50,617 bases of DNA. Origin: Thermoguttaceae bacterium (GTDB taxonomy: Bacteria; Planctomycetota; Planctomycetia; Pirellulales; Thermoguttaceae). The stretch is taken from positions 1 to 50,617 of the forward strand of contig JARKPK010000170.1 of NCBI GenBank assembly GCA_029975295.1, read 5' to 3'. A model generated the notes under the pieces. It made no database searches and had not been told where the DNA came from. It saw only the letters and a list, made by a program, of their open reading frames with translations. The position numbers were made by a program, and so were the translations under genes. Below are positions 27,049 through 40,188 of this stretch, piece by piece (positions within the stretch are counted from its first letter, which is position 1; every line of letters starts with the position of its first letter).

Positions 27049-28836
27049 TCACTCCTCGCTGCTGGTTACGCGCGACCACCAGTCGCGGATGGGCCGCCGT
27101 TTCGCCGGCTGTTCGTCGGCCGGCTCCGAGTCGGTGTCGGAGCGATCGGTTTCGCGCGGCGCTCGTTTGCTGAACAGCTCGCCGGCCGGGGTCGAGGGGG
27201 CTTTGGCCGATGCGCCTTCAGAACCGCCGCCCGGGCCGCCTTCGTCGCGGCGATAGGTTCGGCCCGCCTCCGGCAAGGCGTCCACCTCCAAACGCGAGGG
27301 CAGTGCGCCGCACAGCTTGGCCTCTTGCAGGGCTTGGACGACGTCGGGGTAGCGCCCGCCAAGCTCGACCACCGCGCGAATGACTTCGTCGAGTTTCGTC
27401 GATACCACCCGTTTCTGTTCGGGCTCGTTGACGGCGAACCGGGCGACGGAGATTTCCTCGGGGCCCACGCTGGTGATCATGATCTGATTGCCGGCGTTGA
27501 CGGCCAACGGCGTGACCAGCCGTTGATCGCGGCCGAACAACACCAGCTCCGCCCGCCGGCTGTGCGTGACATGCACCAACGGCGGGCCGAGCGAATCGAC
27601 CACGCAATACGCGAAATGCCCGCCGAGGTTTTCGCCTTTCACCAGCGGGTCTTCACGGTTCATCGCCCACAAGGCGCGGAAGGCGCCATAGCGGGTTTCG
27701 GTGCTGGGCAGATCGAGCATTTCGCGGAGCTGCTCGTAGGCGGTGTAGTCGTCCATGGCGCTTAACGCCGTCAGCGCGAACACGCGGAAAGCCGGTTCGG
27801 TGCGGGCCAGTTGCCCCAACGGCTCGGCCGCCTCGCGACGATCGAGGTAGGCCAAGGCCTCGGCCGCGTAGAAGCGGACCTCGCGATGATTCGAGGCGAG
27901 TCCCTTGAGCAGGACTTCGGCCCCTTGCGGGCCGATCGCTTCGAGCTGCAAAGCGGCCTGAGCGGCGGTTTCCGGTTCGAGCAGCTCGCGCGAAAGCCGC
28001 TCGACGCGCTGCATCCGCTGCGCGTCGGTTTCGCTGATGGCCACGGCACGGCACACCTGCACGTAGCGGGCGATATTGTCTTTGTAGCGCGGGTGAACGG
28101 CCAGGACGATGAATTTGTCGTTGCGCGCCTTGGCCACGCCGGTTTGCGTTCCGCGATCGAACATGTGGAATCGCTTGTTGATCGCGGCGGCGATGCGCGC
28201 GGCGTTGAACACGTCTTGATATCCCTCGCGGAGCACGAGGCCCAAGTCTCGCGACTTTTGGCACACGCCGCCCCCGAGTACTCGGCCGCGGCAAAGCATC
28301 ACTTGGTCTTTCTTGCTCTCGGCGGCCGGATCGATCATCACAGCGCCTTGCGCCAGGGCCAGCAAGCTGCCGTGGCGATACACCCCGCCGAGCAATTGCA
28401 TTTCGCTCAGACGGGTTTCCATCAACCATCCGCCGCGGAGGCTGGTCGTGTCGCTTCGTCCCGGCACGCGCACCTCGATGTCGAAGCGGTCGCCCTTTTG
28501 AATGCCCGGCCGCAGCCAGCCTTGCACCTTCACCAGCGAGCAGTTGCGCGACGCAAGCAGCGTTTGCGGGTTGACCACGCCGCGCGCCTGCATGTCGTCG
28601 ATCAGCGACTGGCGCTCGGGCGACGGGCCCGGATCGCTGCCAGTGCCGTTCAAACCGGTGACCAAGCCGACGGCCTCAACGCGAATCGGGTGCGTGCCGA
28701 AGGCCACGGCCCGATCGCCGACCAAAGGAATCGCCGGACTGTCGGGTTCTTCCGGGCTTTGCGAGCGGATGGCAAGCGAGCTGCAACCGGCCAAGATCAT
28801 TGCGCCGCAGAGCAATACGATGACGCGCGATTTCAT
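27049..28836 (-). CDS. FlgI-like (flagellar P-ring family) lipoprotein with HEAT-like repeats
   Basis: The product is 595 residues. From ATG 28836 it has a lipoprotein signal, MKSRVIVLLCGAMILAGC, with lipobox LAGC and Cys18. Residues about 45-165 match the N-terminal region of the flagellar P-ring protein FlgI (VGLVTGLNGTGSDPG, WLRPGIQKGDRFDIEV, SLRGGWLMETRL, LALAQGAV) and continue with FlgI-like blocks to about 270. Residues about 275-380 look like HEAT-type helical repeats (AAQAALQLEAIGPQGAEVLLKG, EVRFYAAEALAYLDRREA). The last 60 residues are charged and disordered-looking. Typical FlgI is about 365 residues, not lipidated, and has no HEAT part. It may form a ring-like envelope structure not tied to a flagellum, since no other flagellar gene is present here. 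It is upstream of smc on the same strand. Confidence 0.8.
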   Translation of the reverse strand: MKSRVIVLLCGAMILAGCSSLAIRSQSPEEPDSPAIPLVGDRAVAFGTHPIRVEAVGLVTGLNGTGSDPGPSPERQSLIDDMQARGVVNPQTLLASRNCSLVKVQGWLRPGIQKGDRFDIEVRVPGRSDTTSLRGGWLMETRLSEMQLLGGVYRHGSLLALAQGAVMIDPAAESKKDQVMLCRGRVLGGGVCQKSRDLGLVLREGYQDVFNAARIAAAINKRFHMFDRGTQTGVAKARNDKFIVLAVHPRYKDNIARYVQVCRAVAISETDAQRMQRVERLSRELLEPETAAQAALQLEAIGPQGAEVLLKGLASNHREVRFYAAEALAYLDRREAAEPLGQLARTEPAFRVFALTALSAMDDYTAYEQLREMLDLPSTETRYGAFRALWAMNREDPLVKGENLGGHFAYCVVDSLGPPLVHVTHSRRAELVLFGRDQRLVTPLAVNAGNQIMITSVGPEEISVARFAVNEPEQKRVVSTKLDEVIRAVVELGGRYPDVVQALQEAKLCGALPSRLEVDALPEAGRTYRRDEGGPGGGSEGASAKAPSTPAGELFSKRAPRETDRSDTDSEPADEQPAKRRPIRDWWSRVTSSEE

Positions 28837-29792
28837 GCTTCCCTGCACTCCTCGACGCAAAATCGACAGCCGCTGGGCGGAAGGCTGTCGGCGTGACTAA
28901 ACGTATCGTTCGAGAACGGAGAGCGGCTCGGTCGCGCTGCACGCGCCCTTCGGCCGTTTCGCTTTGCTCGCGACCGCTTGGCCTGCGAACGCAGAACCGT
29001 TGAGTTGCCTCGGATTCCGGCCGCCGTCCCTGGCCGACCAAAGAGGCCGAGCAACTCTGCGCCGCAGCGACTGATCGCGTGTACACAATCGCCGCGCGCG
29101 GCGCAAAACTACCGCCTTGCGGGGCGGACGATACCCGCAGGGCGGTCCAGCGTCAAGATCAAGCGCCGTGCGAAAAGGCGGAGATCTGGAGGATCGGGTG
29201 GCTGCCGACCGCTCGGTCTTTGGGTTCCATCCGCCTTGGGGGGAACGCCTGTGCGGTTGCCCACTTTCGGCGGACTTGGCAAAGCGTTGCTTTCAGCCTG
29301 CGGCTGGGTGGTTCGGCCGTATTTCCTGCAATTCCCGGATTGCCGGATGCGACACTGTGCCGGGAAAGTTGTGCCCATCCTTCCGTGGCGGGCACTGCGG
29401 CTTGGGCTGGCGCGGAAATAGCGAAGTAATAACTGCGTAAAGCAGGGTGTTTGCGCGCGTGATCTGGCTTGCACAAAACGGGCGGAAATGGTATTCCAGC
29501 ATGATCCTAGCGGTTCGCCGAACGGCAAACGTCGGCGGCCGCGGTTCGCTGGTCGGAGCGCGCTTTCGGTACGGCTGGGCGAGGCCAATTTGCGAACCCA
29601 GCCGGTCGGTTTCGACTGGGCCGATCTCCGGATGCGATTGCGGCGGATAGAGAATCGCCGTGGCGGTGGAGCGTGGCTGTCGGCCGGTTGGTGCGGCAAC
29701 GGCAGCCGGATGGTCGGTGGAGCAGACGGTTTTCGGCACGCAGCCCGGGGCGGTTCGGGTGCGTACATACGATCACTCACGAGGCACAGGAA
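28837..29792. other. 956-bp intergenic region, no gene recognised
   Basis: This lies between the divergent FlgI-like (-) and E1 (+) genes. Frames exist on both strands, including a long minus-strand frame that continues through the E1 gene as an antisense shadow, but none has a Shine-Dalgarno, domain pattern or plausible composition. I see a small hairpin CTGC-GTAAA-GCAG near 29433-29445 and no clear promoter pair. It may contain leader RNA or an unrecognised element. Confidence 0.4.
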
Positions 29793-31982
29793 GTGTCGAA
29801 GCCTTTGGAACAATCGACGGCAATGGGACGGGCGACGGTCGCTCGGATGTCGAACGCCATGCCCGCACTGCCCGCGAGCGAGGCGGCGGTTGCCGCACCG
29901 GGCTGCGTTGGACCGCGCACCGATGCGGGCGAGGTTGCGGTTGAGCCGGCGGCCTCGGGCGGCCGCAGCCTGCGATTCGACGCGTCCGAGCCTGCTGCGG
30001 GCCTTTGGCCTCGTTTTCCGCAACGGCTGGGGCGCGAGGCGTTTTACGCGGCGGCTTATCCGTTGATCTATCGGTCGCGGCGGCTGGAAGAGCGACTGAT
30101 TGAGCTGTTCCGCAAAGGGTATGTCAAGGGCACGGTAACGATCAGCATCGGCAACGAGGGCACGGCCGTGCCGATGGCCATGCCGATTCGCCCCGGCCGC
30201 GACGTCGTTTCGCTGCTGCATCGCGACTTCGGCGGTCATTTGGCCCAAGGGGCTTCGCCCCATCAATTGCTTTGCCAGTACTTGGCCAACGCCGAAAGCC
30301 CGACGCACGCCACTGAGGGAAACGTGCATCACGGCGATGCCTCGCGGCGCCGCTTCCCGATGATTAGTCATTTGGGCAAGATGCTCAGCTTGGTGGTGGG
30401 CGGCGTTTGGGCGGCGCGCAAGGCGGGCGAAGACGCCCTGGGGCTGGCCGCCATCGGCGACGGAGGAACGAGCACCGGCGAGTTCCACGAATCGTTGAAT
30501 ATCGCCTCGGTGCGCCGAGTTCCCGTGCTTTTCCTGATTGAGAACAACCACTACGCTTTTTCCACGCCCACGAGCTTGCAATACCGATGCCGGCGGTTGT
30601 CCGACCGCGCTGTTGGCTACGGCATTGAGGGCTGCACGGTGGACGGCACCGACGCCTGGGCCGTTTATTCCGCCGTGTGCGACTCGCTGGAGGCGATGGC
30701 TGAGCAATCGCTGCCCCGAATCATCGAGTGCGTCAGCCTCCGGCTGCACGGGCATGCCGTGTACGACAAGGCGGAGTACGTTTCTGAGGAACAGCTTGCC
30801 CAGTGGCGGCAGCGCGATCCGTTGCCGGCGGCCCGGCGGCGATTGCTCGATTGGAGCGGTTGGTCGGACGCAGGGGCCGGCGCGCTTGAGCAACAGATCG
30901 ACGCGGAATTGGAAGACGCCGTGGCCCGCGCGCTGCGCGTGGCGCGGCCCGACCCCGCTTCGCGGGTGTGGACGGCCGTGGCGCCCAGCGCTCCGCCGCG
31001 GCTCAAACCAGTGCAATGGCCGCGGGTGAAGAACGGCGATGCCGTGCGGCTGGCGCTGGAGACCCTGCTTGCCGACGAACCGGCGGCCTTTGTGATGGGC
31101 CTCGATGTCGGGCCGTACGGATCGGCCTTCAAGACATGTAAAGGACTGATCGATCGATTCGGTCCGGATCGCGTGCTCGACATGCCGTTGTGCGAATCGG
31201 GCTTGGTCGGATTTGCTCTGGGGGCTTCGCAGACGGGCGGACGACCGATCCTCGAGTTCCAGTTTGCCGATTTTTCAACCGAGGCGGCTACCCAATTGGG
31301 GCTCAATGCCGGAACGTGGTATTTCCGCGCGGGCCGGCCGGCGCCGCTCGTGATCCGCTTGCCCTGCGGGGGCGGCTTGACGATGGGCGCGTTTCATTCG
31401 GGCGAGTTCGAGGGCCTTTGGTCGCGCTTTCCCGGGCTGAAGCTGCTTTACCCGGCGACGGCGCAAGAGACGTACGAAGCGATTCTGGCCGCCTTCTATG
31501 ATCCGAACCCCTGCTTGGTTTTCGAGCACAAGCTGCTCTATTGGAGCAAGGCCGGTCCGATCGATTTCGACGGCGACCTGAGCCGCGCGTGGCGCGCGCG
31601 GGTGCATCGGCCCGGTGCCGACTTGACAGTCGTGGCCTTCGGTGCGATGGTGCACGAATCGCTGGCCGCGGCCGCCAAGGTCGATTGCTCGATGGAGATT
31701 ATCAATCCCCTGTCGCTCCAGCCGTTAGACGAAGAGGCGTTGGTTGCGTCGGTCGGCAAGACGGGCCGCCTTCTGGTGGTTCAGGAATGCGGCGAGTGGC
31801 ATGGCCTGGGCGACCGGATCATCGCCCTGATCGCCCGGCGGGGCATTCCTTTGAAGAGCCCCCCGCGATTGCTGGCGGCGCCGAACGTTCCGGTGCCGTT
31901 CGCGGCGGAGTTGGAAGCATTCTGCCGGCCCGATGCGGAGAAGATCGCAACCGCCGCGGCCGAATTGTGCAAGGAATCTTGA
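29793..31982 (+). CDS. Fused E1 alpha-beta thiamine-diphosphate 2-oxo acid dehydrogenase
   Basis: From GTG 29793 (GAGG eight bases upstream) the product is 729 residues; ATG at 29823 or 29847 is an alternative, and the N-terminal 70 residues look unstructured. The first half is an E1-alpha domain with YRSRRLEERLIELFRKGYVKG, HRDFGGHLAQG and the TPP-binding motif GDG at 222-224 to NN at 251-252. From about residue 410 it is an E1-beta domain (FVMGLDVGPYGSAFKTCKGL, VLDMPLCESGLVGFALGAS, PLVIRLPCGGG), so both subunits of a pyruvate/acetoin/branched-chain-type E1 are in one chain. It decarboxylates a 2-oxo acid and should acylate a lipoyl domain. The stop overlaps the ATG of the lipoyl-KAS III gene by one base, which points to translational coupling and a shared pathway. 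No E2 acyltransferase or E3 gene is present. Confidence 0.9.
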   Translation: MSKPLEQSTAMGRATVARMSNAMPALPASEAAVAAPGCVGPRTDAGEVAVEPAASGGRSLRFDASEPAAGLWPRFPQRLGREAFYAAAYPLIYRSRRLEERLIELFRKGYVKGTVTISIGNEGTAVPMAMPIRPGRDVVSLLHRDFGGHLAQGASPHQLLCQYLANAESPTHATEGNVHHGDASRRRFPMISHLGKMLSLVVGGVWAARKAGEDALGLAAIGDGGTSTGEFHESLNIASVRRVPVLFLIENNHYAFSTPTSLQYRCRRLSDRAVGYGIEGCTVDGTDAWAVYSAVCDSLEAMAEQSLPRIIECVSLRLHGHAVYDKAEYVSEEQLAQWRQRDPLPAARRRLLDWSGWSDAGAGALEQQIDAELEDAVARALRVARPDPASRVWTAVAPSAPPRLKPVQWPRVKNGDAVRLALETLLADEPAAFVMGLDVGPYGSAFKTCKGLIDRFGPDRVLDMPLCESGLVGFALGASQTGGRPILEFQFADFSTEAATQLGLNAGTWYFRAGRPAPLVIRLPCGGGLTMGAFHSGEFEGLWSRFPGLKLLYPATAQETYEAILAAFYDPNPCLVFEHKLLYWSKAGPIDFDGDLSRAWRARVHRPGADLTVVAFGAMVHESLAAAAKVDCSMEIINPLSLQPLDEEALVASVGKTGRLLVVQECGEWHGLGDRIIALIARRGIPLKSPPRLLAAPNVPVPFAAELEAFCRPDAEKIATAAAELCKES

Positions 31983-33310
31983 TGGACGCTGGTGTTTTTC
32001 GGCTTTCGCTCTATCTGCCGGCTCAGGGGGCTTCCGAAACGGAAGCAACGATCATCGAGTGGCATGTGGCCGAAGGCGACCGCTTCGAACAGGGGCAGTC
32101 GTTGGCGCAGGTCGATAGCGCCAAGTCGGTCTTCGAGTTCGAGGCGCCGTGCCGCGGGCGGGTGATTCGTCGGTTGTTCATCGAAGGCGAGGCGGTGCCG
32201 ATGAGCAAGCCGGTGCTGGAAATCGAAACGGACGATCCCGCCATGCGCGATTGGATTCCGCCCGCCCCTGCCGCCCTGCCCGAGGCCGGCCCGGCGGTTC
32301 AACGGCCGGCGGCGGAATTTCTGCCGATGCCCCGGACGGCGCAAACGGTGAGTTTGTTGGCTGTCGGCGGGTATCTGCCGCGGCGGGTGGTGACCAACGA
32401 GGAGCTGGTCGAACATCTGCCGCACATCTCGGCGGATTACGTCGAGCAAGTGACCGGAATTCGCGAGCGGCGTTGGGCGTTGCCGGGAGAAAGGCCCTCC
32501 GATATGGCCTACGCGGCGGCGCTCGAGGCGATTCGCAAGTCGGGACTGGCCACCAAGCAGATCGACGCCATTATTCTGGCCACCACCACGCCCGACGTGG
32601 CCATGCCGGCTACGGCCGCATTTCTGCAAGATCGCCTGAATTTGCCCACCATTCCCGCGTTCGATCTCAATGCGGCTTGCTCGGGATGGCTCTTCGCCGT
32701 CGAGATGGCCCGCGGCATGATCCTCTCCGGCGCGGCACGACATGTGCTCACCGTCGGAGTCGACATGCAGTCGTATCTGCTCGACAAGACGGACGAAAGC
32801 GCGTTCTTCATCTTCGGCGATGGGGCCGGGGCGGCCATCGTGGCCGCGCATGAGGGCTCGGGCGCGAAGATCGTCCGCACGGTGCTGGGCGGCGACAGCC
32901 GCGGCCTGCATTTGGCCCGCCGCAACACGCCCGGCTTCTGGCCGGTCAATGCCGTGGGCGAGATCGATCCGTGGATCCGGCTCGATGGTCCGGCTCTGTT
33001 TCGCGGGGCCGTAGAGAACTTCGCCTCGTTGGTGCGCGAGTCGCTGGTCCGCAGCGGCTGGGCTCCCGACGAAGTCCGCTGGGTCATTCCCCACCAGGCC
33101 AACGGGCGGATTCTTCGCGCGGCCGCCAAGCGCAGCGGAGTGCCGTTCGAACGGTTCTTCTTGAACATGGATCACGTGGGCAACACCTCTAGTGCAAGCA
33201 TTCCCTTGGCCATCGTCGAGCTCGAACCGCGACTTCAGCCCGGCGACCGCTTGCTGCTTTGCTCGGTGGGCGCGGGCTTGACCACGGCCGCCGTATGCTT
33301 AGAGTGGTAG
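31982..33310 (+). CDS. Lipoyl domain fused to 3-oxoacyl-ACP synthase III (KAS III, FabH-like)
   Basis: The product is 442 residues, starting at the ATG that overlaps the E1 stop (TGATG), with AAGGA just upstream. Residues about 5-85 form a biotinyl/lipoyl-type domain (ASETEATIIEWHVAEGD, then QVDSAKSVFEFEAP, RGRVIRRLFIEGEAV). Lys48 sits where the lipoyl lysine is found, though the usual Asp just before it is Ala47. A Pro/Ala-rich linker (about 90-120) leads to a full KAS III: catalytic Cys233 in NAACSGW, His371 in IPHQANGRI and Asn401 in HVGNTSS, the standard triad. Standard FabH is about 320 residues and has no lipoyl domain. There is no E2 acyltransferase motif. The likely role is accepting an acyl group made by the adjacent E1 on its own lipoyl arm and condensing it with malonyl-ACP; this is inference. 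Confidence 0.9.
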   Translation: MDAGVFRLSLYLPAQGASETEATIIEWHVAEGDRFEQGQSLAQVDSAKSVFEFEAPCRGRVIRRLFIEGEAVPMSKPVLEIETDDPAMRDWIPPAPAALPEAGPAVQRPAAEFLPMPRTAQTVSLLAVGGYLPRRVVTNEELVEHLPHISADYVEQVTGIRERRWALPGERPSDMAYAAALEAIRKSGLATKQIDAIILATTTPDVAMPATAAFLQDRLNLPTIPAFDLNAACSGWLFAVEMARGMILSGAARHVLTVGVDMQSYLLDKTDESAFFIFGDGAGAAIVAAHEGSGAKIVRTVLGGDSRGLHLARRNTPGFWPVNAVGEIDPWIRLDGPALFRGAVENFASLVRESLVRSGWAPDEVRWVIPHQANGRILRAAAKRSGVPFERFFLNMDHVGNTSSASIPLAIVELEPRLQPGDRLLLCSVGAGLTTAAVCLEW

Positions 33311-33529
33311 CCGGCGGGCGGGCAACAGACGTTCGCAGACGCCGCTCGGGCTGCCCGGCGCCGGCCGCGGCCCGTCGTGGGCAATGTCTGCGGGAACGCC
33401 GAGCCTGATGCCGATGCCGGCCTGAATCAGCCGCTTGCCGCGTTTTTTCCCGCGGCAGAGCGCGGCGGTTTTCGCAACAGAACACGCGATTTCAATCTTC
33501 CGGCTGCATGATGCGATGGATGGTTTGCC

Positions 33530-34087
33530 ATGCCGATCTACGAGTTCTACTGTCGTGATTGCCATCGGATTTACAACTTTCTTGCTCGGCGATTGAATGT
33601 CGAGGCGGCGCCGGCCTGCCCGCGCTGCGGGCGCCCGCAGTTGGAAAAGCGATTGTCGCGATTCGCCATCGGCCGGCGGCGCGAGACGGCGACCGAAGAT
33701 TCGGCCGGAGCGTCGGGCGGCGACGATGCCGCCATCGAGTCGCTGCTCGGCGAGTTGGAACAGCAAGCGGAACACCTTGACGAAAACGATCCGCGGCAAA
33801 TGGGCCGGCTGATGCGGCAGTTGTGCGAGAAGACGGGCATGCCGATCGACGGTCCGATGGCCGAGGCCCTCCGCCGGCTTGAGGCGGGAGAAGACCCCGA
33901 CCGCATCGAAGAACAGATGGGCGACCTTCTCGACGCGCTGCCCGACGACGCCGCGCCTTGCGAAGAACCCGAACCCGAATTGCCCGGCAGGTCGGCCCGC
34001 ACCGCCGGGCGAAAGGGCTCGACGCGCGACTGGGTGCGCCGCCTGAAACCACCGGAAACGGACGACGGCCTGTACGATTTGGTTTGA
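33530..34087 (+). CDS. FmdB-type zinc ribbon protein
   Basis: The product is 185 residues. The N-terminus is the FmdB / putative regulatory protein zinc ribbon: MPIYEFYCRDCHRIYNF, with metal cysteines C8 and C11, then C30 and C33 (CPRCG). The remainder is acidic and helical (ESLLGELEQQAEHLDENDP, EAGEDPDRIEEQMGDLLDAL) and ends in a charged tail. Simple FmdB proteins are usually 60-110 residues, so this one is extended. Function of the family is poorly known; a regulatory or metal-linked role is often suggested. It lies 219 nt after the lipoyl-KAS III gene on the same strand, and a functional link is uncertain. Confidence 0.85.
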   Translation: MPIYEFYCRDCHRIYNFLARRLNVEAAPACPRCGRPQLEKRLSRFAIGRRRETATEDSAGASGGDDAAIESLLGELEQQAEHLDENDPRQMGRLMRQLCEKTGMPIDGPMAEALRRLEAGEDPDRIEEQMGDLLDALPDDAAPCEEPEPELPGRSARTAGRKGSTRDWVRRLKPPETDDGLYDLV

Positions 34088-37890: not shown

Positions 37891-40188
37891 TTACCGCACC
37901 ACCTCGATGAGATACCAGCACACGGCCGGTTCTCCGATGGGAATGCGGAAGCCGGCCTGCCGGCCGGCGCGCTCGGCTCGGATATCCACGGCCGGCGCCA
38001 TCGCGCGGCCCGTGGGCGACAGCGGCACGGCGCGAATCGCCTGCGCGCCTTCGATGCCGAATAGCCGCACTTGGCCGGAAACGCGCTCGATGAGCACCGG
38101 GCCTTTGCCGTGTTCGAGCAGCAGTTGGCGGTCGTCGGCCCACTTCATCCCGCTGTTGCCCGACCATGCGGTCGTTCCCAGCAGCAGCCGCTGCGATTGG
38201 GCGATCGGGCGGTCGTCGTCGGCGGTGAGCAGCACGGCCGCGAACACGTTGTCGAGCCGGATCGCCAGGTTGGCCGTCTTCCGCTCGTTTCGGCCCACGA
38301 ACCCGATCAGCCCTTGCGTCCGCGGCGTATCGACCGACACCCAGCCGAGCTTCTTGTCGGCGTCGCGCCAGCACAACTCGCCGGTGTCGCTGGCGATTTC
38401 CGCCAAGTTGGCCTCGGGCGGGAATGTTTCGCTTCGGGGCGCCTCGGCAAACTCGAACCGCAGCCGATGCCGCAACGCCGCCGAGCGCGGGAAGCCCGGC
38501 TTGAAGAACGGCCGCTCCTTCCAGCGTTCCATTCGCAATGTGTCGATCAAATCGTCGGGGCTGTAGCTGCGCAGCAGCGTGGTGCGGGCGGGCTGAACGT
38601 CGTGCCGATGCCACGCGGCCGAGCACAAGGCCACCGTGGCCACCTTCATCGAATCGTTGCTGAAATCGAACCAGCCGTGCGATTGAATGCCCTGCTCGGG
38701 CGGCAGTTTGCGACCTCGCCCCCAGGTGAACCAGTAGATGCCGTCCCAATCTTGCAGCATGGCGTAGGCGGTCAGAATCGGGAACCCTTCGCAGGCGAAC
38801 TCGTGCGGGAAGGGATGATTCACCTCTGAGATGGTGAACGGCTTGCCCGCCACCGGCGAACGGGCGAACTGAGTAACGGTCGAGTCGAGCGGGTCGTTGA
38901 CCATCGGCGTATTGCGGATCCACGTTTGGCCGTCGAGCCGCGGGTGTTCCCAGTAGCCGTGGCCGTCGATCACGTCGAACATCATGTTCGCTTTGATGTG
39001 CGCGAAGGCAGCGAACGAATCGTTGTGGTCGGCCGTGCCGATCACCAGCGGCCGACACTGCAATTCTTCTTTGAGCAGGCGTTTCATGCCTTCGAAGAAG
39101 CGGTGTTCGACCTCGATGTAGAAGCGGGCCTCGGCGGCAAACCGCTCGCGCGAGGCCGACTTGAACTGGTTGGGGGCCAGCCGGGGCACCCGGCCCGCGG
39201 GCCCGACACCCGCCTCGCGGCGCAAAGCGGCCAACTGCTCGGGCGAGAGCTTTTCGACCAGCCAGGCGTTGTACAGGTCGGTCAGCTCTTCGGCGTATGA
39301 AGTCGGCAGCGGCGACCAGGTCGAGGGCGTCGGCTTCTCTTGGCCCACCAGTCGGCCGCCCACCCAGCCCTCGAGCACCGAGTTCTCGTTGACGATTTCG
39401 ATGAACGCCACGGCCGGGTCGTGGCGGTACTCGTGCCCGCGGTACGGATTGCGATGCGTCAGCAGTTGCCGCGCGTATTCGTGCTGAAGCTCGATGAGCC
39501 GCGGGCTGAAGTAGGTGGCCGACTTGCCGTAGCCGAGGTGCTGCCAGTCGCGCACGCCGTCGCCCTCTTTGTAGTTTCGCCCCACGTTGAGGTTCAAATT
39601 GATGTAGATGCCTCGCTCGGCCAGTTGATGGATGAAGTAGTCGAACCGGTCGAGCCGCTCGGGATCCAGCGCGCGGGTGTCGTTGCGCTTCGGGTCGAAG
39701 AGCGATCCCCAGGTGCTGTCCATGTGGTGGAACCGCACGCAGTTCACACCGAGCCGAGTCAGATCGTCGGCGATGGCCGGGGCCACGTCTTTCTCGGGGT
39801 AGCCGTCGGGACCGCAGATGTTCACGCCCCAAATGCGGAAGCGGCGGCCGTCGGGTCGAACCAGCCGATCGTTCTCGACGCGGATGAATCCGTCTTTTCC
39901 CGCCGGGGCTTCGAGAAAGCGGCGATGATCGACGAGGATTTTTCCCTCGGCCCGCCAATCCATCGGATAGGGGCGGAACTCGCCGCGCTCGATCCGCGGC
40001 ACCGGCGACTCGCCCGCCCAAGCCGGCCGAACGCCGAGCGACAATCCCAGCAGGACCGCCGGCAACAGCCAGGCGGCGGCAAACCAGGCCGCCCGACTCT
40101 GCGCACGAACTGCTGGTCGAACAGAGCTCGCGGCACACCAGCGCACAACGCCAGAGCTGAACAGAGAGGATGGGTGTGTTTGCTTCAT
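37891..40188 (-). CDS. GH5-like (clan A) glycoside hydrolase, secreted
   Basis: The product is 765 residues. ATG 40188 has AAAGG about eight bases upstream. A long N-terminal leader with a hydrophobic core (residues about 34-58, WFAAAWLLPAVLLGLSLG) ends near AWAGE. The TIM-barrel part has RFRIWGVNICGPDGYPEKD, LGVNCVRFHHMDSTWGS, the acid/base block IEIVNENS (N267-E268) and the nucleophile block FTISEVNHP (E455), as in clan A glycosidases such as cellulase-type GH5. The barrel ends with DGIYWFTWGR. The last 230 residues are beta-rich and may be carbohydrate-binding domains. Substrate is probably a beta-linked polysaccharide; the exact family is not certain. Confidence 0.87.
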   Translation of the reverse strand: MKQTHPSSLFSSGVVRWCAASSVRPAVRAQSRAAWFAAAWLLPAVLLGLSLGVRPAWAGESPVPRIERGEFRPYPMDWRAEGKILVDHRRFLEAPAGKDGFIRVENDRLVRPDGRRFRIWGVNICGPDGYPEKDVAPAIADDLTRLGVNCVRFHHMDSTWGSLFDPKRNDTRALDPERLDRFDYFIHQLAERGIYINLNLNVGRNYKEGDGVRDWQHLGYGKSATYFSPRLIELQHEYARQLLTHRNPYRGHEYRHDPAVAFIEIVNENSVLEGWVGGRLVGQEKPTPSTWSPLPTSYAEELTDLYNAWLVEKLSPEQLAALRREAGVGPAGRVPRLAPNQFKSASRERFAAEARFYIEVEHRFFEGMKRLLKEELQCRPLVIGTADHNDSFAAFAHIKANMMFDVIDGHGYWEHPRLDGQTWIRNTPMVNDPLDSTVTQFARSPVAGKPFTISEVNHPFPHEFACEGFPILTAYAMLQDWDGIYWFTWGRGRKLPPEQGIQSHGWFDFSNDSMKVATVALCSAAWHRHDVQPARTTLLRSYSPDDLIDTLRMERWKERPFFKPGFPRSAALRHRLRFEFAEAPRSETFPPEANLAEIASDTGELCWRDADKKLGWVSVDTPRTQGLIGFVGRNERKTANLAIRLDNVFAAVLLTADDDRPIAQSQRLLLGTTAWSGNSGMKWADDRQLLLEHGKGPVLIERVSGQVRLFGIEGAQAIRAVPLSPTGRAMAPAVDIRAERAGRQAGFRIPIGEPAVCWYLIEVVR

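Follow-up and report, generated by a model that had tools for sequence, protein, structure and literature searches.

A fused E1 and a lipoyl domain-KAS III fusion as a candidate CoA-free priming module in Planctomycetota

How does a 2-oxo acid dehydrogenase hand on its acyl group when the protein encoded next to it carries a ketosynthase and no acyltransferase? The question is raised by a 50,617-nucleotide stretch of DNA from a Thermoguttaceae bacterium (assembly GCA_029975295.1, contig JARKPK010000170.1, positions 1 to 50,617), referred to below as the window. In it, an open reading frame (ORF) for a single-chain, thiamine diphosphate-dependent dehydrogenase component (E1; 29793..31982) is followed on the same + strand by an ORF for a 442-amino acid (aa) protein that joins a lipoyl domain to a 3-oxoacyl-acyl carrier protein (ACP) synthase III (KAS III; 31982..33310). 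The E1 stop codon TGA (31980-31982) and the ATG of the fusion (31982-31984) have one base in common, forming the TGATG overlap described in an earlier reading of the sequence (the original prediction). FabH-type enzymes are taught to draw their primer from acyl-coenzyme A (CoA). We propose, giving it roughly two chances in three, that the two proteins form a CoA-free priming module for chain synthesis, in which the acyl group made by E1 would pass to the lipoyl arm on Lys48 and from there to KAS III.

The first protein is a fused alpha-beta E1, as had been predicted. Pfam searches found E1_dh in its alpha half (30075..30944, 182.3 bits) and Transket_pyr (31035..31541, 95.5 bits) and Transketolase_C (31596..31946, 84.6 bits) in its beta half. 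The GDG (30456-30464) and NN (30543-30548) motifs, a Glu (31194-31196) and two His (30753-30755 and 31395-31397) are invariant in all 28 E1s aligned, so that the protein has the alpha-beta organization, GDG-NN motif and catalytic His and Glu of a 2-oxo acid dehydrogenase. The first His aligns with the one that precedes the phosphorylation loop in the alpha chain of human branched-chain 2-oxo acid dehydrogenase (BCKDH), which we take to be His291, and the second is presumably of the His146-beta type; the titles of PDB entries 1ols, 1olx and 1olu name the two catalytic-type His. An AlphaFold model of the E1 (predicted local distance difference test score, pLDDT, 83.3) matched the E1 beta chains of pyruvate dehydrogenase (PDH) and BCKDH at Z of about 38-40 and their alpha chains at about 30-34. 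As the best PDB match was BCKDH for alpha and PDH for beta, we abandoned reading the substrate from sequence. The E1 had been predicted to begin at 29793; the ORF is real and 29793 is a GTG codon in a frame that is open as far back as 29673, but similarity among relatives begins only near 30006 (conserved body, 30006-31979), and translation may start at 29793, 29823, 29847 or another codon.

The second protein consists of a lipoyl domain (Biotin_lipoyl; 32015..32224, 40.6 bits against a cut-off of 22.1), an Ala/Pro-rich linker (32255..32341) and a KAS III domain (32342..33307; ACP_syn_III, 80.4 bits; ACP_syn_III_C, 100.6 bits). Lys48 (32123-32125, in DSAKSVF), Cys233 (32678-32680, in NAACSG), His371 (33092-33094, in PHQAN) and Asn401 (33182-33184, in GNTS) are invariant in 33 aligned sequences, those of the window and 32 relatives. 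The protein thus combines, as foreseen, a lipoyl domain bearing the conserved Lys of 2-oxo acid dehydrogenases with the Cys-His-Asn triad and fold of a complete KAS III; in the structure model (pLDDT 81.5) the KAS III region aligns with known FabH structures at a TMt of about 0.92. The fusion scores 304.3 bits with the NF006829 profile (cut-off 249) and 275.3 bits with the curated fabH model TIGR00747, under the cut-off of 292.1. The PDH and BCKDH complexes have the catalytic domain of the acyltransferase component (E2) on the lipoyl protein, whereas a Pfam search found no match to the E2 acyltransferase domain PF00198 in the fusion; nor was there a Pfam match to a PP-binding (ACP) domain in either window protein. 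The Pfam family of the lipoyl domain spans biotinyl as well as lipoyl domains, and the domain might accordingly be biotinylated, or be unmodified and structural. We regard this as very improbable: the Lys, invariant in 33/33 sequences, lies in DSAKSVF and not in the biotin-type MKM, and an E1 partner is present.

Is the pairing of E1 with a lipoyl-KAS III fusion a product of chance? It is not, because 33 further fusion loci, found by the lipoyl domain alone in a scan of an 84,980-species collection, all have an E1 directly upstream on the same strand. The upstream E1s are 55-69% identical (51% for one piece in L086); the E1 frame is broken in L086, and a contig end cuts the E1 in L095 and the fusion in L110. 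In 7 of the 33, as in the window, the final base of the E1 stop also belongs to a start codon of the fusion. No fusion without an E1 partner occurred among these 33 two-gene loci or among 15 single-chain proteins introduced below, so the expectation that such fusions always neighbor an E1 was borne out in these sets. All 33 loci lie in metagenome-assembled genomes, 31 labelled as Planctomycetota lineages and two named otherwise (Nealsonbacteria, Sumerlaeia).

A set of 60 relatives included 36 other members of the window's family. Of these, 19 have the full fusion (57-69% identity), a further one (G019) has a divergent fusion and another (G011) a fragment; the two-gene version occurs in none of the 23 genomes from other families of the order. 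A family-wide search placed the fusion in 24 of 40 genera and 33 of 119 genomes, many of them incomplete, counting the genome that holds the window (the home genome) and G019 and leaving out the G011 fragment; these fusion sets overlap and cannot be added. Among 397 matching plasmid records, none covers 80% of the fusion. We also considered the pair as part of a conserved cluster and rejected this: no third gene recurs in more than 6 of 34 loci (the 33 and the window), in a clustering of neighbors that left out shadow ORFs over the pair and in which 16 of the 33 loci had at least 3 kb on both sides and seven were under 8 kb. As far as can be seen in the visible flanks, the pair stands alone. 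One locus (L091, in G010) has a plain KAS III gene (L091:12724-13686) 1.4 kb downstream of the pair.

Do these KAS III domains still look built for CoA? We compared residues on the CoA and ACP sides, numbered as in E. coli FabH (from NC_000913), in the two-gene set (the window and 32 relatives, the L110 fusion being cut by a contig end), in the 15 single chains and in 14 plain planctomycete KAS III, four of them from the home genome. In E. coli FabH, W32 stacks on the CoA adenine, and W32 and R36 are both CoA contacts. Tyr replaces W32 and Val replaces R36 in 33/33 two-gene domains, and also in G019; the single-chain domains have Asp (14/15) or Glu (1/15) at W32; plain KAS III retain W32 in 11/14 cases and R36 in 11/14. 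On the ACP side of the two-gene domains, R249 is kept in 33/33, K256 is Lys or Arg in 33/33, and K257 is Arg in 32 and His in one. This residue pattern fits a KAS III that has lost its preference for CoA and kept its docking site for ACP.

The same three parts also occur in a second arrangement, a single chain of about 1140 aa ordered E1-lipoyl-KAS III (Pfam domains confirmed in two). Queried with the lipoyl-KAS III part, 17 of 296 genomes of the order matched at E 1e-70 or better, none of them in the window's family; two more, G170 and G299 of family f83, bring the number to 19. Open frames measure 1115-1218 aa in 18 of the 19 and 569 aa in G476, and one internal TAG is listed in 3 of the 17 rows. 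Fifteen chains were read (all but those of G564, G582, G476 and G521), with the E1 nearly full in four and present as its C-terminal two thirds in 11, and all 15 carry E1 and lipoyl-KAS III in one frame. Of 991 plasmid records matching the single chain, none covers 80% of it.

The two arrangements appear to have separate histories. In a 46-row E1 tree, the two-gene E1s and the G019 E1 are grouped with support of 100/100 on a branch of 2.71. Four single-chain E1s (100/100) lie far from them, as sisters (98/98) of E1-lipoyl-E2 chains from family f66, which have an E2-type C-terminus (DHRPFNG; E2 assigned by motif) where the single chains have KAS III. In a 32-row KAS III tree, which took 12 of the 33 fusions, leaves 14 forks open and includes two rows that are very long, a 100/99 branch parts the two-gene fusions from the single-chain domains (100/100), and 13 plain KAS III and E. 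coli FabH fall on the single-chain side. Read most simply, these trees suggest two or more separate events in Planctomycetota by which a KAS III became linked to E1 and a lipoyl domain. In the single-chain lineage, moreover, KAS III stands where sister proteins carry an E2-type domain, as if replacing E2. This apparent swap speaks more strongly than any other observation for KAS III having E2's task of accepting the acyl group from the lipoyl arm.

The f66 chains (L047-L052; L118:4307-7834) are of about 1120-1190 aa; considered at one point as E1-lipoyl-KAS III proteins, these long frames were set aside as they end in an E2-type motif. DHRPFNG is found in five of the six L047-L052 locus frames and in L118, the usual E2 motif being DHRxxDG, and judging from this motif the f66 chains may load a carrier other than CoA.

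Several observations weigh against the proposed module. Only 33 of the 119 family genomes show the fusion, which is therefore not generally essential. The lipoyl part scores far under the whole-protein cut-offs of NCBIfam E2 models, and the linker is modelled at low confidence (mean pLDDT of 41-49, below 50, in blocks of residues 91-120), so that the model fixes no position for the lipoyl domain. The E1 is itself unusual, with His for the Tyr of the YR pair and SHLG for SSPL in 28/28 sequences, and it may act on a non-classical substrate. The lipoyl motif of 12/15 single chains ends in KSVF, like the DSAKSVF of the two-gene proteins, and the lipoyl part may have a shared origin in both arrangements. 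The W32 to Tyr change is mild and leaves an aromatic ring in place, R36 is kept in 12/15 single chains, and residue 151, dropped by us as a sign of lost CoA binding, does not discriminate (Arg in 20/33 fusions and 6/14 plain KAS III). Together with the FabH fold, these last three points favor an alternative in which KAS III uses acyl-CoA as FabH does and the lipoyl domain is a tether for E1, or feeds the PDH E2 and the CoA pool. Set against it are the replacement of W32 in all 48 KAS III domains read from fusions, 33 of the two-gene and 15 of the single-chain kind, and of R36 in 33/33 two-gene domains, the position of the single-chain KAS III where sister proteins have E2, and the E1 in every locus checked; we consider it unlikely.

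What, then, does the home genome (99.99% complete, 0.61% contamination) offer the pair? Its one PF00676 E1 is that of the window, and its one PF00198 E2 lies directly after aceE on contig C188 (aceE: TIGR00759, 1411 bits, cut-off 859.9). A 2-oxo acid dehydrogenase component for reoxidation (E3) is available in trans, one strong gene on C145 scoring 472.2 bits against a cut-off of 408.8, and LipA and LplA/LipB-family genes are present. Besides the window's, the strongest PF00364 domains belong to the aceE-side E2 and to a gene just before accC, and three weaker partial matches also exceed the cut-off; no other lipoyl partner for the E1 was evident in this PF00364 search, which did not cover GcvH and other lipoyl families. 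The aceE-side E2 may serve as a partner of the window E1.

Two further home-genome genes exceed the TIGR00747 cut-off (308.7 and 340.2 bits), which also counts against the module; for this reason we discarded the idea that the fusion replaces the housekeeping FabH, and the route is likely an accessory way of priming and not the sole one. The original prediction of a CoA-free lipoyl route to KAS III thus gains from the constant coupling to E1, the single-chain form, the changed W32 and the lack of any E2 partner other than the aceE-side one, but in the home genome it would probably describe an additional path. Of the 19 other genomes in the family that carry a full fusion, 18 list additional matches to the fusion protein. 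For G006 (92% complete; L017, L114) no match at E 0.001 or better is listed besides the fusion itself, which may be the sole KAS III of that genome. C145 also encodes a further ketosynthase, a KAS III relative (L113:4980-6035; PRK09258, 426.9 bits, cut-off 285).

How might the CoA-free module work? E1, whose catalytic residues are conserved, would use thiamine diphosphate to decarboxylate a 2-oxo acid and would reductively acylate the lipoyl group of Lys48. The lipoyl arm, on its flexible linker, would deliver this acyl group to Cys233 in the KAS III domain of the same protein. That domain would stand in for the missing E2 acyltransferase, and its Cys-His-Asn triad would condense the acyl group with malonyl-ACP to a 3-oxoacyl-ACP that enters the ordinary fatty acid cycle. 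The E3 encoded elsewhere would reoxidize the dihydrolipoyl group. Pyruvate, for which there is already an AceE-type PDH, is a less likely substrate than a branched 2-oxo acid or another non-acetyl one. The acyl unit or product might also be a different one, for instance a polar unit (such as the glycolyl of the Qnc systems below) destined for a special lipid and not a branched starter; the invariant His and SHLG of the E1 alpha half and the deep, separate E1 clade would suit this. Residue 87, whose size is linked to substrate range, is Met in 30, Ile in two and Thr in one of the two-gene domains, smaller than the Phe of E. coli and fitting branched primers, and no biosynthetic neighbor recurs within the flanks available; we think such a different unit and product quite improbable and retain the priming module with a branched or other non-acetyl starter.

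Which known systems come closest? The original prediction had invoked the NapB/NapD type, which we take to group with the Qnc glycolyl loading systems, and this precedent proved apt in kind, less so in parts. In the excerpted description of QncN/QncL/QncM and SclQ1-4, a glycolyl unit is loaded by way of a lipoyl domain, an E2-like acyltransferase domain and an ACP (PMC6335953). The window pair resembles them in its E1-related thiamine enzyme, its lipoyl domain and the proposed delivery of an acyl unit to a carrier protein; it differs in that they have an E2-like domain and a dedicated ACP (QncL/QncM) in an antibiotic-type cluster, whereas in the window the next domain after the lipoyl domain is a KAS III, with neither of these and no recurrent cluster. 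Photorhabdus BkdABC, by the excerpts available, itself supplies 5-methyl-3-oxohexanoyl as a 3-oxoacyl thioester and supports the synthesis of iso-fatty acids (PMC4578411, PMC4901931). Here too a 2-oxo acid-type complex would itself deliver a 3-oxoacyl thioester, but BkdB is described as having an ACP domain dependent on a phosphopantetheinyl transferase, and the window proteins lack a PP-binding domain. In the parts of these sources at hand, a lipoyl-KAS III fusion is absent from the accounts of both Qnc (PMC6335953) and BkdABC (PMC4578411, PMC4901931), and both have an ACP; the window pair therefore differs from both. The Bacillus scheme, as excerpted, likewise leads from a 2-oxo acid to a FabH-primed fatty acid, but links branched-chain 2-oxo acid dehydrogenase and FabH through acyl-CoA made with E2 (PMC6461809), whereas the window pair is without E2 and has lipoyl domain and KAS III in one protein.

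Fused E1 genes also occur on the Streptomyces plasmids NZ_CP061282 (L076:8013-18286) and NZ_CP108424 (L077:5941-13950), beside polyketide synthase/non-ribosomal peptide synthetase (PKS/NRPS) genes whose product starts lipoyl-E2 acyltransferase-ACP-ketosynthase (KS). As in the window, the protein encoded after the fused E1 has a lipoyl domain at its start and a ketosynthase further on; the plasmid KS is of the ketoacyl-synt type in a PKS/NRPS setting, with E2 and ACP in between and no KAS III. These regions, with DHTVFNG/DHTVLNG motifs, presumably resemble streptogramin clusters and have the look of a module for loading without CoA. Some relatives of KAS III are pure acyltransferases, and the order of the plasmid proteins, like the pairing of an E2-like domain on the lipoyl protein with an ACP partner in the closest known systems (PMC6335953, as excerpted), lends some weight to the view that KAS III here is an acyltransferase only, passing the acyl group from lipoyl to Cys233 to ACP and yielding acyl-ACP without condensation, in the manner of QncL-type E2-like domains. 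With the condensing Cys-His-Asn triad invariant in 33/33 sequences and the ACP_syn_III domains scoring well above cut-off, we hold this to be rather unlikely, and favor condensation by KAS III.

On balance we lean towards the wider view that the two arrangements represent a class of E2-less 2-oxo acid dehydrogenases with KAS III as acceptor of the lipoyl-bound acyl group and CoA-free carbon-carbon bond formation, with at least two origins in Planctomycetota, one giving a pair of coupled genes and the other a single polypeptide whose relatives are E1-lipoyl-E2 chains. A literature search limited to open-licence papers found none naming a lipoyl-KAS III or E1-lipoyl-KAS III protein. If the proposal is right, handing the primer from the lipoyl arm to KAS III would make the start of fatty acid synthesis independent of the acyl-CoA pool and would account for a fused E1 gene that is otherwise an orphan. 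Engineered lipid or polyketide pathways could also gain a small module, of two genes or one, that determines their starter unit. With two origins reached by different routes, the idea could be tested by comparing lineages as well as on a single enzyme.

Around the pair, neither an E2 nor an E3 gene was seen among the flanking ORFs examined (SMC, FlgI/HEAT, zinc ribbon protein, DUF4838 and Gfo/Idh oxidoreductase), in agreement with the original prediction. A scan of 28800-33700 gave two promoter-like sites, neither of them ahead of the pair on its strand, and six terminator-like sites against 5.3 expected. A 765-aa ORF on the - strand (37891-40188) has no Pfam match at E 0.001. The ORF at 27049-28860, also on the - strand, encodes a FlgI (flagellar P-ring) domain followed by HEAT repeats.

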